DNA of 64,000 nt from Rhodococcus sp. ABRD24. GTDB lineage: Bacteria > Actinomycetota > Actinomycetes > Mycobacteriales > Mycobacteriaceae. The stretch is from assembly GCF_004328705.1 (NCBI RefSeq), contig NZ_CP035319.1, positions 1,116,001 to 1,180,000 of the forward strand, in the 5' to 3' direction. Below, piece by piece: positions 51,286 through 55,517 of this stretch. Position 1 is the stretch's first letter. Every line of letters starts with the position of its first letter. The position numbers and the translations under genes are program-made. Under the pieces are notes generated by a model. That model saw only the letters and a program-made list of their open reading frames with translations, made no database searches and was not told the DNA's origin.

Positions 51286-52503
51286 TTACGCGCGGGCCTT
51301 CTGCAGATTCTCGTCGAGCGTACCGAGGAACTCCTCGGTGGTCTGCCAACCCTGGTCGGGTCCGATCAGCAGTGCGAGGTCCTTGGTCATCTGGCCGTTC
51401 TCGACGGTCTTGATGACGACATCCTCGAGCTGCTGCGCGAAGTCGATGACCTCGGGGGTGTTGTCGAGCTTGCCGCGGTGCTCGAGTCCCCGGGTCCACG
51501 CGAAGATGGACGCGATCGGGTTCGTCGAGGTGGGCTTGCCCTGCTGGTGCTGGCGGTAGTGGCGCGTGACGGTGCCGTGTGCGGCCTCCGCCTCGACCGT
51601 GCGGCCGTCCGGGGTCATCAGCACGGAGGTCATCAGACCCAGCGAGCCGTAACCCTGTGCGACGGTGTCCGACTGCACATCGCCGTCGTAGTTCTTGCAG
51701 GCCCAGACGTAGCCACCCTCCCACTTGAGCGAGGAGGCGACCATGTCGTCGATGAGGCGGTGCTCGTAGGTGAGGCCCGCAGCGTCGAACTCTGCCTTGA
51801 ACTCCTCCTCGTAGATCCGCTGGAACTCGTCCTTGAACATGCCGTCGTAGGCCTTGAGGATCGTGTTCTTGGTGGAGAGGTACACCGGGTAGTTCTGCTG
51901 CAAACCGTAGGCCAGCGACGCCCGCGCGAAGTCCTGGATGGACTTCTTGTAGTTGTACATACCCATGACGACGCCGCCGTCTTCGGGCATCTGGCACACC
52001 TCGTGCTGGATCGGCTCGGAGCCGTCCTCGGGGGTGTACGTGATGGTGACGGTGCCGGCGCCGGGGACCTTGAAGTCCGTGGCGCGGTACTGATCACCGA
52101 ACGCGTGACGGCCGACGATGACCGGCTTGGTCCAACCCGGGACCAGACGCGGAACATTCGAGATCAGAATCGGCGCGCGGAAGATGGTGCCGCCGAGGAT
52201 GTTGCGGATGGTGCCGTTCGGGGAACGCCACATCTTCTTCAGGCCGAATTCCTCGACCCGAGCCTCGTCGGGGGTGATCGTCGCGCACTTGACGCCGACG
52301 CCGTGCTCCTTGATTGCGTTCGCCGCATCGATCGTCACCTGGTCGTCGGTCGCATCGCGATGCTCGATCCCCAGGTCGTAGTACTCCAGATCGACATCCA
52401 GGTAAGGATGGATCAGCTTGTCTTTGATGAACTGCCAGATGATGCGAGTCATCTCGTCGCCGTCGAGTTCGACGACCTTGCCTTCGACCTTGATCTTGGA
52501 CAT
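51286..52503 (-). CDS. icd: NADP-dependent isocitrate dehydrogenase (homodimeric, eukaryote-like)
   Basis: A 405-residue enzyme of the TCA cycle converting isocitrate to 2-oxoglutarate and CO2. It is the short homodimeric type (M. tuberculosis Icd1), unlike the E. coli-type enzyme. Key blocks are [20 protein letters not shown], the [12 protein letters not shown] substrate loop, [14 protein letters not shown] (metal-binding Asp), and [15 protein letters not shown] (NADP site). The ATG at 52503 has AGGAGG 13 nt upstream. An AT-rich segment at about 52598-52614 is a plausible promoter on the minus strand. Confidence 0.97.
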
Positions 52504-52800
52504 GGGGGCTTCGCGTCCTCCTAGGAAGTTTCCCTGGTTCCGTTCCCTGGGTAATGCGGGTGTGCGGGCCACTTTGTGAGTGAGCCCGCCAACGGTTCAA
52601 TTATCAAACGTATACGGTCCGGGCCCCCGGGTGAGGGACGACCCAAACATGACGAGCGTACTGCTATCGCTCGCTGCCGCAACCGCGACCCCGGAACCGG
52701 AGACGCTACCTACCGGTAACTTTGCGGACTCCGAGACCCACGCGGACCCTTTCGCCGGAAATATCCGGTGCCCTGCTTTTCCCGCACCGGTATCTGCCGC
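52504..52800. other. Intergenic region between icd and the metY leader
   Basis: About 300 nt without a supported gene. Apart from the icd ribosome-binding region it contains a CGTATACG palindrome (52609-52616) next to an AT-rich stretch that may be the icd promoter. The rest is GC-rich and shows no coding pattern that I trust. Confidence 0.4.
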
Positions 52801-52806
52801 TAAGAT
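52801..52806 (+). promoter_or_regulatory. -10 box of the metY-metX leader transcript
   Basis: TAAGAT fits TANNNT, and 8 nt later the first base of the riboswitch P1 helix begins (52815). The transcript would therefore start exactly at the riboswitch. No convincing -35 box was found. Confidence 0.5.
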
Positions 52807-52814
52807 CACGGCAA

Positions 52815-52932
52815 GGTCATGAGTGTCAGCATCGAGCCCCGGCTTGCTGGCCGGCAACCCTCCAACCGCGGTGGGGTGCCCCGGGTGATGACCAGGTTTC
52901 CCGACGCAAGTCGGGTGACAAGCGCGGGTCCG
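52815..52932 (+). ncRNA. SAM-IV riboswitch
   Basis: The sequence shows the SAM-I-like core of actinobacterial SAM-IV elements. P1 is GGTCAT (52815-52820) with ATGACC (52888-52893). Between them are the GCTTGCTGGCCGGCAACCCTCC-type segment (in two parts, 52842-52863) and the GTGGGGTGCCCCGGGTG strand. A GCAA-capped hairpin (52900-52915, CCCGAC/GTCGGG) and the downstream GCGCGGGTC strand follow, the features that separate SAM-IV from SAM-I. It senses S-adenosylmethionine and lowers expression of methionine synthesis genes. A GGGTCC/GGACCC hairpin (52926-52945) shares bases with the 3' strand and may form the alternative structure. metY starts 135 nt downstream. Confidence 0.93.
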
Positions 52933-52978
52933 CTGGGACGGACCCACTGACCGGGCCATGCCCCACCGGAGGTTCATC

Positions 52979-52999
52979 ATGTGTTGTTGTCGCAGATAG
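52979..52999 (+). CDS. Six-codon cysteine-rich leader ORF (MCCCRR)
   Basis: The ORF reads ATG-TGT-TGT-TGT-CGC-AGA-TAG, so three consecutive Cys codons follow the start. It has a perfect ribosome-binding site (GGAGG, 52968-52972) with 6-nt spacing, stronger than that of metY. It lies between the SAM-IV riboswitch and metY. Polycysteine leader ORFs in mycobacteria act as cysteine-responsive attenuators of sulfur operons: when charged tRNA-Cys is scarce, ribosomes stall on the Cys codons and downstream expression rises. A comparable role for metY-metX is inferred. A GC-rich hairpin (53022-53034) follows the stop and could be the alternative structure. Confidence 0.75.
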   Translation: MCCCRR

Positions 53000-53067
53000 C
53001 CCAGATTCCCGGGCGCGCGCGCGGCGCTGCGCCGACACCACTTTCAGAACCTGGAGTTAGAGCACTC

Positions 53068-54381
53068 ATGACCGAAATCACGGATGCCACGATCGATCCG
53101 ACGGCCAACTGGAGCTTCGAGACCAAGCAGATCCACTCGGGTCAGTTGCCCGACGGCGCCACCAACGCCCGCGCGTTGCCGATCTACCAGACCACCTCGT
53201 ACACGTTCAACAACACCGACCACGCGGCGGCGCTGTTCGGGCTGGCCGAGCCGGGCAACATCTACACCCGCATCATGAATCCGACGCAGGACGCGGTCGA
53301 GCAGCGGATCGCCGCCCTCGAAGGTGGCGTCGCGGCACTGCTGCTGGCCTCCGGCCAGGCGGCCGAGACGTTCGCGATTCTCAACCTCGCCGAGGCCGGC
53401 GACCACATCGTGTCGAGCCCGCGCCTGTACGGCGGGACGTACAACCTGTTCCACTACTCGCTGCGCAAGCTCGGCATCGAGGTCTCGTTCGTCGAGGATC
53501 CCGACGATATCGAGCAGTGGCGTGCCGCCATCCGCCCGAACACCAAGGCGTTCTACGGCGAGTCGATCTCCAACCCGCGCAACGACATCCTGGACATCCC
53601 CGGGATCTCGAAGGTCGCACACGAGAACGGCCTGCCGCTGATCGTCGACAACACGGTCGCGAGCCCGTACCTGATCCGTCCGTTCGAGCACGGCGCAGAC
53701 ATCGTCGTCCACTCGGCCACCAAGTACCTCGGCGGCCACGGCACCGCGGTCGCCGGCGTGATCGTCGACAGCGGCAAGTTCGACTGGACACAGGGCCGGC
53801 ACACCAACTTCACCACGGCCGACCCCAGCTACCACGGCGTGGTGTACGCAGACCTGGGCGCACCGGCCTTCGCCCTCAAGGCGCGCGTGACGCTGCTGCG
53901 CGACCTGGGTGCGGCCATCTCGCCGTTCAACGCATTCCTCATCGCGCAGGGCATCGAGACGCTGAGCCTGCGGATGGAGCGCCACGTCGCAAATGCGAAG
54001 GCCGTTGCCGAGTACCTCGAGGCCCGGCCGGAGGTCACTTCGGTGTCCTACGCCGGTCTGCCGTCGTCGCCGTGGCACGAGCGTTCCAAGACGATCGCCC
54101 CCCGCGGCACCGGCGCGATCGTTGCGTTCGAGCTGGCCGGTGGCGTCGACGCGGGCAAGAAGTTCGTCAACGCTCTGAGCCTGCACAGCCACGTCGCCAA
54201 CATCGGTGACGTCCGCTCGCTGGTCATCCACCCGGCATCGACCACCCACTCGCAGCTGACTCCGGCAGAACAGCTGGCTTCGGGTGTGACACCGGGGCTG
54301 GTCCGGCTCGCGGTCGGTATCGAGGGCATCGACGACATCCTCGCCGATCTCGATGCCGGGTTCGCGGCGGCAGCATCTTGA
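53068..54381 (+). CDS. metY: O-acetylhomoserine sulfhydrylase (aminocarboxypropyltransferase)
   Basis: A 437-residue PLP enzyme of the Cys/Met metabolism family, converting O-acetylhomoserine and sulfide to homocysteine. The PLP lysine is Lys219 in [11 protein letters not shown]; the [20 protein letters not shown] start and [12 protein letters not shown] block are typical of MetY. The ATG at 53068 has GGAG about 11 nt upstream. It is controlled by the SAM-IV riboswitch and probably by the Cys leader ORF. The stop overlaps the metX start (TTGA). In M. tuberculosis the pair is called metC-metA (Rv3340-Rv3341). Confidence 0.96.
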
Positions 54382-55517
54382 CAGTCAGCTCTGTGCGCAA
54401 CGCCCGTCCGGCCGGATTTCCTCCGCCGGACGGGCAGTTGAGCAGCATCCAGATCGGCTCACTCGAGCTCGAGAACGGTGTAGTGCTGCCCGATGTGACT
54501 CTCGCGATCCAACGGTGGGGCGAGCTCTCCCCCAACCGGGACAACGTGATCCTCGTCGAGCACGCGTTGACCGGTGACTCGCACGTCACCGGTCCCGCGA
54601 ACGACGAGCATCCCTCGCCCGGCTGGTGGAACGGGATGATCGGCCCAGGCGCTCCGATCGACACCGACGAGTGGTGCGTGCTCGCGACCAACGTGCTCGG
54701 CGGCTGCCGCGGCACGACCGGCCCAGGGTCACTCGCCGCCGACGGCTCGGTGTGGGGTTCCCGGTTCCCGGAGATCTCCATCCGCGATCAGGTGACCGCC
54801 GAGGTCGCGCTGGCCGACCTGCTCGGTATCGAACGTTTCGCGGCCGTCGTCGGCGGCTCGATGGGCGGCATGCGCGCGCTCGAGTGGATCGTCGGTCATC
54901 CCGACCGGGTCGCCGCGGCACTGATCCTCGCGGTGGGTGCGCGCGCGACGGCAGACCAGATCGGCACGCAGACCACTCAGATCGAGATCATCACCAACGA
55001 TCCGGACTGGCAGGGCGGCGATTACCACGGCACCGGTCGCATTCCGCGCACCGGACTGGGCCTGGCCCGCCGGATCGCACACTTGACCTACCGCGCCGAG
55101 AACGAGCTGGACTCGCGGTTCGCCAACCACAACCAGGGTGACGAAAACCCTTGGGACGGCGGACGCTACGCAGTGCAGAGCTATCTCGAGCATCAGGCCG
55201 ACAAGCTGGTTGCGCGGTTCGACCCCAGCACCTACGTGCTGCTCACCGAGGCGATGAACCGCCACGACGTGGGACGCGGCCGCGGCGGCGTCGAGGCCGC
55301 GCTGGCGTCCACCGACGTTCCGGTGATCGTCGGCGGAGTGGACTCGGATCGGCTGTACCCGTTGCGACTGCAGCAGGAACTCGCAGACGGGCTGCCCGGC
55401 TGCGCCGGGTTACGCGTGCTCGAGTCCAAGGATGGGCACGACGGTTTCCTCACCGAAGCCGCCGCCGTAGCCAAGCTACTGACCGAGACGATCGAACTGG
55501 CGCGCGCGGCCCGCTAG
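54378..55517 (+). CDS. metX: Homoserine O-acetyltransferase
   Basis: A 379-residue alpha/beta-hydrolase-fold enzyme that uses acetyl-CoA to acetylate homoserine, giving the MetY substrate. The nucleophile is Ser161 in [14 protein letters not shown]; the remaining triad members are the Asp in [10 protein letters not shown] and His in SKDGHDGFL. The start is an unusual TTG that overlaps the metY stop (TTGA); the next residues [10 protein letters not shown] lead into the family N-terminus, and no better start is seen. Length equals that of the M. tuberculosis protein. Confidence 0.95.

Follow-up and report, generated by a model that had tools for sequence, protein, structure and literature searches.

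The leader of metY and metX in Rhodococcus sp. ABRD24 carries a SAM-IV riboswitch followed by a short cysteine-rich upstream ORF (uORF), which raises the question of whether these two elements act one on the other or side by side. The locus lies in a 64,000-nucleotide stretch of contig NZ_CP035319.1 (positions 1,116,001 to 1,180,000) that was analysed as a whole and is here called the window. An initial annotation had noted the order of riboswitch, GGAGG, MCCCRR ORF and metY-metX, and had proposed a two-input gate, open only when SAM and cysteine are both low. The observation is real: the parts were located in the window letters, by Rfam match and by NCBIfam cut-offs (Table 1), and the six-codon ORF is present with its Shine-Dalgarno (SD) sequence at the spacing described. 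The model matched by the metY product is named bifunctional O-acetylhomoserine/O-acetylserine sulfhydrylase, and 68 bases separate the uORF stop from metY. The divergent neighbour of the leader is a gene for NADP-dependent isocitrate dehydrogenase (51286-52503, minus strand).

Table 1. Parts of the metY-metX leader, in window coordinates
Feature	Position	Strand	Basis or remark
-10 box TAAGAT	52801-52806	+	Window letters; TANNNT spacing common to relatives
SAM-IV riboswitch aptamer	52815-52930	+	RF00634, 121.3 bits; long invariant stretches in a 44-sequence alignment
Tail CGCGG, likely 3' strand of PK-2	52923-52927	+	Partner CCGCG at 52866-52870; complementary by eye, putative pairing
Hairpin GGGTCC/GGACCC, candidate expression platform	52926-52931 / 52940-52945	+	Shares two bases with the tail
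uORF SD GGAGG, spacing 6	52968-52972	+	Window letters
Cysteine uORF ATG TGT TGT TGT CGC AGA TAG (MCCCRR)	52979-52999	+	Window letters; conservation
C-rich spacer from uORF to metY ribosome site	53000-53052	+	Contains small hairpin 53022-53034
Weak metY SD GGAG, spacing 11	53053-53056	+	Window letters
metY	53068-54381	+	PRK07812, 857 bits against a cut-off of 703
metX, homoserine O-acetyltransferase, overlapping the metY end	54378-55517	+	NF047917, 606 bits against a cut-off of 475

The aptamer and the cysteine uORF

The aptamer is the sole Rfam match in the window at the gathering threshold; it is full length (positions 1-116 of 116) and its 121.3 bits compare with a gathering score of 38. The initial annotation had placed it at 52815-52932; the start holds, and the end moves in to 52930. 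Its suggestion that the transcript starts at the riboswitch is supported by the TAAGAT box and by the spacing of such boxes in relatives: among 118 leaders with both ends locatable, a set that was not de-duplicated, 109 have a TANNNT box beginning 13 or 14 bases 5' of the aptamer. The predicted transcript start is expected at the aptamer's 5' end. SAM-IV thus sits in the 5' leader of sulfur-metabolism genes, with the promoter at its 5' end and metY-metX downstream. SAM-IV directly upstream of metY is known, for example at M. avium MAV_4315 (PMC3774663), as is a pseudoknot, PK-2, at the SAM-IV 3' end (PMC6890682).

The stem that follows the tail, proposed earlier as a candidate switch structure, can be read in the sequence at the positions given for it. 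A stem of six pairs occurs after the tail in 94 of 116 distinct leaders, and compensatory forms exist (GGGTTC/GAACCC and GGGCCC/GGGCCC). The count alone proves little, because shuffled sequences average 48.7, with a maximum of 61. In L191, L192, L216 and other uORF-less Mycobacterium metY leaders, we noted by eye two stems, GGGTCC..GGGCCC and CCCCTG..CAGGGG, that share bases. They seem mutually exclusive over the metY SD, and SAM-IV could plausibly use them as a translational platform.

Of 118 distinct intervals between aptamer and metY, 66 hold an ORF that is preceded by an SD and has two or more Cys in codons 2-7; 50 dinucleotide shuffles yielded 0.30 on average and never more than 2. The antisense strand gave one by the same criterion (1/118). 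A stricter count, with three or more Cys among the first four codons past the start, finds 45 of the 118 intervals, against 0.00 when shuffled. Of 61 distinct uORFs, 60 begin with ATG and 57 have GGAGG or AGGAGG as their SD; in 27 the last Cys is separated from the stop by exactly two codons. The codons after the Cys run vary freely and the Cys codons hardly at all: codons 2-4 comprise 140 TGT and 15 TGC, the others being mainly Ser or Arg codons a single base away, and TGG does not occur. Among uORF Cys codons, TGT outnumbers TGC 166 to 17, as against 23 TGT and 110 TGC in the 36 long ORFs of the window.

The initial annotation had staked its reading on conservation of the Cys codons in close relatives, and this was borne out: all 14 Prescottella leaders keep the ORF, with two or three Cys codons in the run. 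A longer ORF from an in-frame upstream start, MPHRRFIMCCC, was rejected; it is out of frame in L013, and its ATG is absent in leaders of the R. triatomae clade, such as L018. We also set aside the cysteine content of MetY as support for the uORF. The window MetY has no Cys residues, and the same is true of 23 of 24 MetYs with a uORF, 20 of 26 with SAM-IV only, and 20 of 21 named MetYs whose leaders lack the SAM-IV pattern. Lack of Cys is thus frequent with and without the uORF, and is a property of MetY.

Occurrence across relatives and specificity for metY

We examined 188 metY leaders, 14 from Prescottella (the window's own genus), 100 from others of the family and 74 species-named. This table stands without six of 106 prepared regions and without six of 80 named loci (L173, L204, L227, L229, L238 and L240). 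A SAM-IV text pattern matched 129 of the 188 leaders, 75 of them having a uORF by the two-Cys criterion given above; removal of identical intervals reduced the 129 to 118 (the sets overlap). An Rfam rescan of 29 of the 59 pattern misses yielded 11 more SAM-IV leaders, L140 and ten others. Two of these carry a Cys uORF, L140 and L237, the latter from a metagenome-assembled genome with MSCCRRMLLR.

Counted over distinct leaders, the uORF is present throughout Prescottella (g1, 14/14), the R. triatomae clade (g21, 4/4), the Antrihabitans clade (g15, 4/4) and the Aldersonia clade (g19, 2/2), and in most leaders of Rhodococcus g23 (8/10), of g6, the group with R. yunnanensis (9/12), and of g22 (3/4). 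Further named Nocardia (6/6) and further named Rhodococcus (4/4) have it, as do the single leaders of g11, g17, g26, g28 and g31 (1/1 each) and one of three in g20. Counts are 1 of 11 in g29 and 3 of 20 in named Mycobacterium. By the two-Cys criterion it is absent from g9 (0/2), g10 (0/2), g18 (0/3), g24 (0/2) and named Gordonia (0/3). Assignment of g22 to Nocardia and g29 to Mycobacterium is by leader likeness, and 'Rhodococcoides-like' is our own label for g6. Degenerate forms such as MRCRHC, MCRDC and MCRTCR were seen in g11, g17, g20 and two leaders of g23. In all, the criterion leaves 52 of the 118 SAM-IV leaders without a uORF, including most of those from mycobacteria; a Cys run too late for it to count is seen in some mycobacterial leaders (MRASLHPLTRCCCR; MRASIGLLVGCCCH). 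The parts, their order, their joint conservation across genera and their link to metY are established.

Two genome titles deserve comment. The tail-to-metY stretch of L233, titled Kitasatospora arboriphila, is identical to that of genome G143 (L158, label g10, from the window's family), and the L233 contig may be misplaced or contaminated. The leader and uORF of L168, titled Rhodococcus ruber IEGM 1391, resemble those of the g6 group (L075, L163), and its species label may be wrong.

Specificity for metY was assessed with 29 further SAM-IV loci. Three had no recognised core and four of the other 26 were metY leaders; control locus L249 was judged a metY leader by its likeness to L103. None of the remaining 22 leaders, which precede 20 class V aminotransferase-like and two rhodanese-like genes (named by our own reading), has a Cys uORF. 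At the level of the order, 24 of 28 loci were readable and four had no core; several f1 loci are genomes already in the leader table, and the match of L284 lies inside metY. Here the uORF was found in 2 of 8 metY leaders versus 0 of 16 other SAM-IV leaders, and both cases, MSRRMCCCRS and MSCRMCCRH, stand before metY in another family (f4).

Other observations were made among the SAM-IV loci. The window's genome has a second SAM-IV (G000:C1:3291160-3291274, L002), upstream of a gene assigned by eye as class V aminotransferase-like. In L248, L252 and L259 the N-terminus of the class V aminotransferase-like protein is strikingly Cys-rich, and might be a cysteine-sensitive start. Genome G378 of family f4 has 11 SAM-IV matches, and several f4 relatives have 4 to 8.

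The Rhodococcus group g27 has a different arrangement at metY. In seven of its nine scanned metY leaders (L072, L082, L086, L091, L102, L112 and L132), a GTG ORF with a Cys run of CICGC or CMCGC kind follows a TANNNT box at a distance of exactly 7 bases. The SAM-IV text pattern matched none of the nine, and an Rfam scan of five (L072, L082, L091, L104 and L132) found no SAM-IV. A leaderless-looking Cys ORF where SAM-IV is missing supports cysteine sensing at metY. The g27 leader L140 does have SAM-IV, with the uORF MSCCCG.

How the two sensors may be connected

The uORF starts 24-109 bases past the tail (median 59, n=75). In uORF-less leaders metY itself starts 25-119 bases past the tail (median 53, n=19, being those of 54 such leaders with a recognisable SD nearby). 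The uORF sits where uORF-less relatives have their metY start, and for this reason the riboswitch may control the uORF itself, forming one nested switch rather than two independent ones. In L142, a g22 leader without the uORF, metY itself occupies the slot after the tail, so the uORF appears to have replaced a direct target. The uORF SD begins 11 bases past AAGCGCG in 7 Rhodococcus leaders and only 4-7 bases past it in 13 others (Nocardia, the Antrihabitans clade and g26); such closeness suggests that SAM probably gates the uORF itself. Hiding the tail in predicted folds made the uORF SD costlier to open, with an increase above 0.5 kcal/mol, in 41 of 75 leaders, and less costly in 12. The cost rose from 3.72 to 7.04 kcal/mol in the window and went the opposite way in L003, L006 and L007, so that Prescottella shows both directions. 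We consider it evenly balanced whether SAM-IV switches translation of a cysteine-sensing uORF, such that cysteine is read at metYX only when SAM is low, with either sign of the cysteine effect.

The best single reading, to which we give tentative preference at somewhat less than even confidence, is a two-sensor switch in series, with SAM gating a cysteine-sensing uORF and metY made when both metabolites are low. The SAM-IV aptamer, made first, would use its 3' tail to permit or block initiation at the uORF. The uORF would be the cysteine sensor: if translated, its Cys codons would be passed by ribosomes supplied with charged Cys-tRNA, and would stall those without. At high SAM the uORF would go untranslated and metY would be off. 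At low SAM with sufficient cysteine, the ribosome would finish and leave, and metY would be low. With both low, a ribosome stalled on the Cys run would keep the following RNA open, and metY and metX would be made. The RNA might be kept open against pairing over the metY ribosome-binding site (RBS), or against Rho; both the sign and the route of this effect on metY are putative.

The output step was modelled in leaders whose metY SD could be recognised and whose spacer was long enough, 58 of the 75 for ribosome masking and 55 for duplexes. With a ribosome masking the RNA at the last Cys, the predicted cost of opening the metY RBS drops by over 1 kcal/mol in 14 of the 58 leaders, and its mean shifts only from 6.84 to 6.37 kcal/mol. 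In the window masking raises the cost from 4.06 to 6.2-7.1 kcal/mol, the wrong direction. The duplex of the window's post-Cys stretch with the metY RBS is predicted at -12.9 kcal/mol, versus -7.6 for non-cognate pairs; over the 55 leaders, mean energies are -8.2 kcal/mol for cognate, -7.5 for non-cognate and -7.9 for shuffled partners. The modelling weakly suggests that the start of the spacer can pair with the metY RBS in the window. Complementarity is clear only in the Rhodococcoides-like leaders, where GAUACGCCCCGU just past the Cys run complements ACGGAGUAUC around the metY SD, and where the model has a stall releasing the metY RBS. The spacer is rich in C and poor in G, C exceeding G in 55 of 56 leaders, and its composition could suit Rho; long uORF-less leaders (n=26) lean likewise, with 38% C and 26% G. 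Lineages may vary in the output step.

Several candidate output structures were tried and rejected. The hairpin at 53022-53034, named by the initial annotation as a switch candidate, can be read in the sequence, and found no compensatory support in an alignment of 17 leaders of Prescottella and the R. triatomae clade (one leader of that clade, L087, is not in the alignment). It lacks a T-run, and terminator scoring gave nothing at this place. Nor was an intrinsic terminator scored after the uORF; the sole terminator-like site in 52600-53200, at 52753-52770, is upstream of the promoter. The consensus fold of the same 17 leaders has seven pairs with no compensatory change, and a conserved anti-SD structure was rejected. 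A CCC element 9-12 bases past the Cys run is present in 25 of 59 leaders, versus 11.2 in shuffles (maximum 18), and is enriched without being general, in a stretch that is C-rich. In the window fold the uORF SD, GGAGGUUC, pairs with a GAACCU that precedes the metY SD; by eye this pairing is broken in several relatives.

Other explanations were weighed against the series switch. It is rather unlikely, though it deserves the most attention of these, that the leader holds two independent devices, SAM-IV alone lowering metYX (for instance by Rho-dependent termination) and the uORF acting separately on the metY RBS, with the inputs multiplying. The Prescottella leaders, with 59 bases and a hairpin between tail and uORF start, agree with such independence, as do the divided fold predictions, with 41 of 75 leaders in which a hidden tail shuts the uORF SD off and 12 in which it exposes that SD, and the C-rich spacer, which could serve Rho. 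It fits poorly with the 13 leaders in which the uORF SD is 4-7 bases off the tail, since an occupied aptamer could hardly spare that SD, and with L142, which has the same genus label and no uORF, and has metY in that slot. We think it unlikely that the switch is nested with the opposite cysteine sign, such that uORF translation promotes metY by termination-reinitiation or Rho protection, metY is on at low SAM with sufficient cysteine, and a stall lowers it. In four distinct leaders (L070, L080, L093, which is the same genome as L178, and L098) the uORF stop codon does run into the metY start as ATGA; two further ATGA/GTGA strings lie far from metY. Riboswitch-controlled uORF translation is needed for PPE2 expression in M. 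tuberculosis, as described in PMC11260477. It would also make sense to save sulfide for cysteine when the latter runs low. Against this, the uORF stop lies 18-187 bases from the metY start in most leaders tested, too varied for general coupling. Known cysteine uORFs, moreover, reportedly induce at low cysteine.

The remaining alternatives deny the uORF a sensing role. That it encodes a functional Cys-rich micropeptide, binding metal or thiol and co-regulated with metY by SAM-IV, is very improbable: MCCC does stand out chemically and the Cys run is often followed by Arg, but residues past the run vary freely, length ranges from 5 to more than 30 codons, and the Cys codons are mostly the one that is rare in window ORFs. 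The strong preference for TGT over TGC could instead mark TGTTGTTGT as a conserved, untranslated RNA motif, the least probable explanation of all, given that start codon, SD and stop are kept and that, at codons 2-4 of the 61 uORFs, TGC stands in for TGT in 15 cases and TGG in none. If SAM-IV does gate a uORF that senses cysteine, whichever the sign of the cysteine effect, the direct target of the riboswitch would be a second sensor. The leader would then be a conditional RNA attenuator of nested design, taking two inputs at the methionine/cysteine branch and common to several genera plus a second family.

Relation to known systems

In R. qingshengii IGTS8, which has two MetYs (PMC9426449), the MetY peg3888 is up 2.9-3.1 log2 in dibenzothiophene versus sulfate culture (PMC8557817). 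This rise, in one of two copies and whichever its leader, is only consistent with sulfur-supply control. If the series switch is correct, RNA alone combines two end products at the methionine/cysteine branch point, upstream of a branch-point enzyme annotated as able to make homocysteine or cysteine. Leaders with both sensors, leaders with SAM-IV only, and leaders with a leaderless-looking cysteine ORF and no SAM-IV match form a natural comparison set. There would also be a warning for annotation, that a riboswitch's first target can be an unannotated sensory ORF.

Canestrari and colleagues are said to have described, in Mol Microbiol in 2020, polycysteine leaderless short ORFs of mycobacteria at which stalling at low cysteine leads to induction. 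Like these, the window uORF is a short ORF of consecutive Cys codons before sulfur genes, and the read-out proposed for them is ribosome speed. Unlike them, it follows a riboswitch and usually has six codons in relatives; its GGAGG SD and its place ~165 bases from the predicted transcript start led us to class it as working like the leaderless attenuators, not as a member. The work of Canestrari and colleagues is summarised in PMC9031893 and cited in PMC13236596, and the legend of Extended Data Fig. 7 in the latter concerns candidate cysteine uORFs of M. tuberculosis, its text naming no genes.

Other riboswitches are known to share a transcript with a uORF. The M-box before pe20 of M. tuberculosis resembles our case in having a conserved uORF, Rv1805A, between aptamer and gene, and the M-box translational platform is described as acting on that uORF (PMC12810186). 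Unlike the cysteine uORF, Rv1805A is a conserved peptide, not a codon-based sensor, and the ligand is Mg2+; the main text of that paper mentions neither SAM-IV nor cysteine. The B12 riboswitches at metE and ppe2 of M. tuberculosis likewise combine a riboswitch and a translated uORF on one gene, and uORF translation there can be required or repressive, according to PMC11260477. They differ in their B12 ligand, and the relevant passages of that paper describe no second metabolite sensed by a uORF.

M. avium MAV_4315 has the same aptamer before the same gene (PMC3774663). Unlike the window, many of the mycobacterial and Gordonia leaders examined lack a Cys uORF by our criterion, and their tail directly precedes the RBS of metY. 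Among openly licensed papers we found no description of SAM-IV and a cysteine uORF in series on one operon, which is no proof of absence. Two inputs at a met operon, SAM plus tRNA charging, are described for the Xanthomonas SAM-I riboswitch (PMC7270179); there, unlike here, uncharged initiator Met-tRNA rather than Cys-tRNA is the second input, and it binds the expression platform directly with no uORF. Each sensor of the metY leader is of a known kind; the combination appears to be new.
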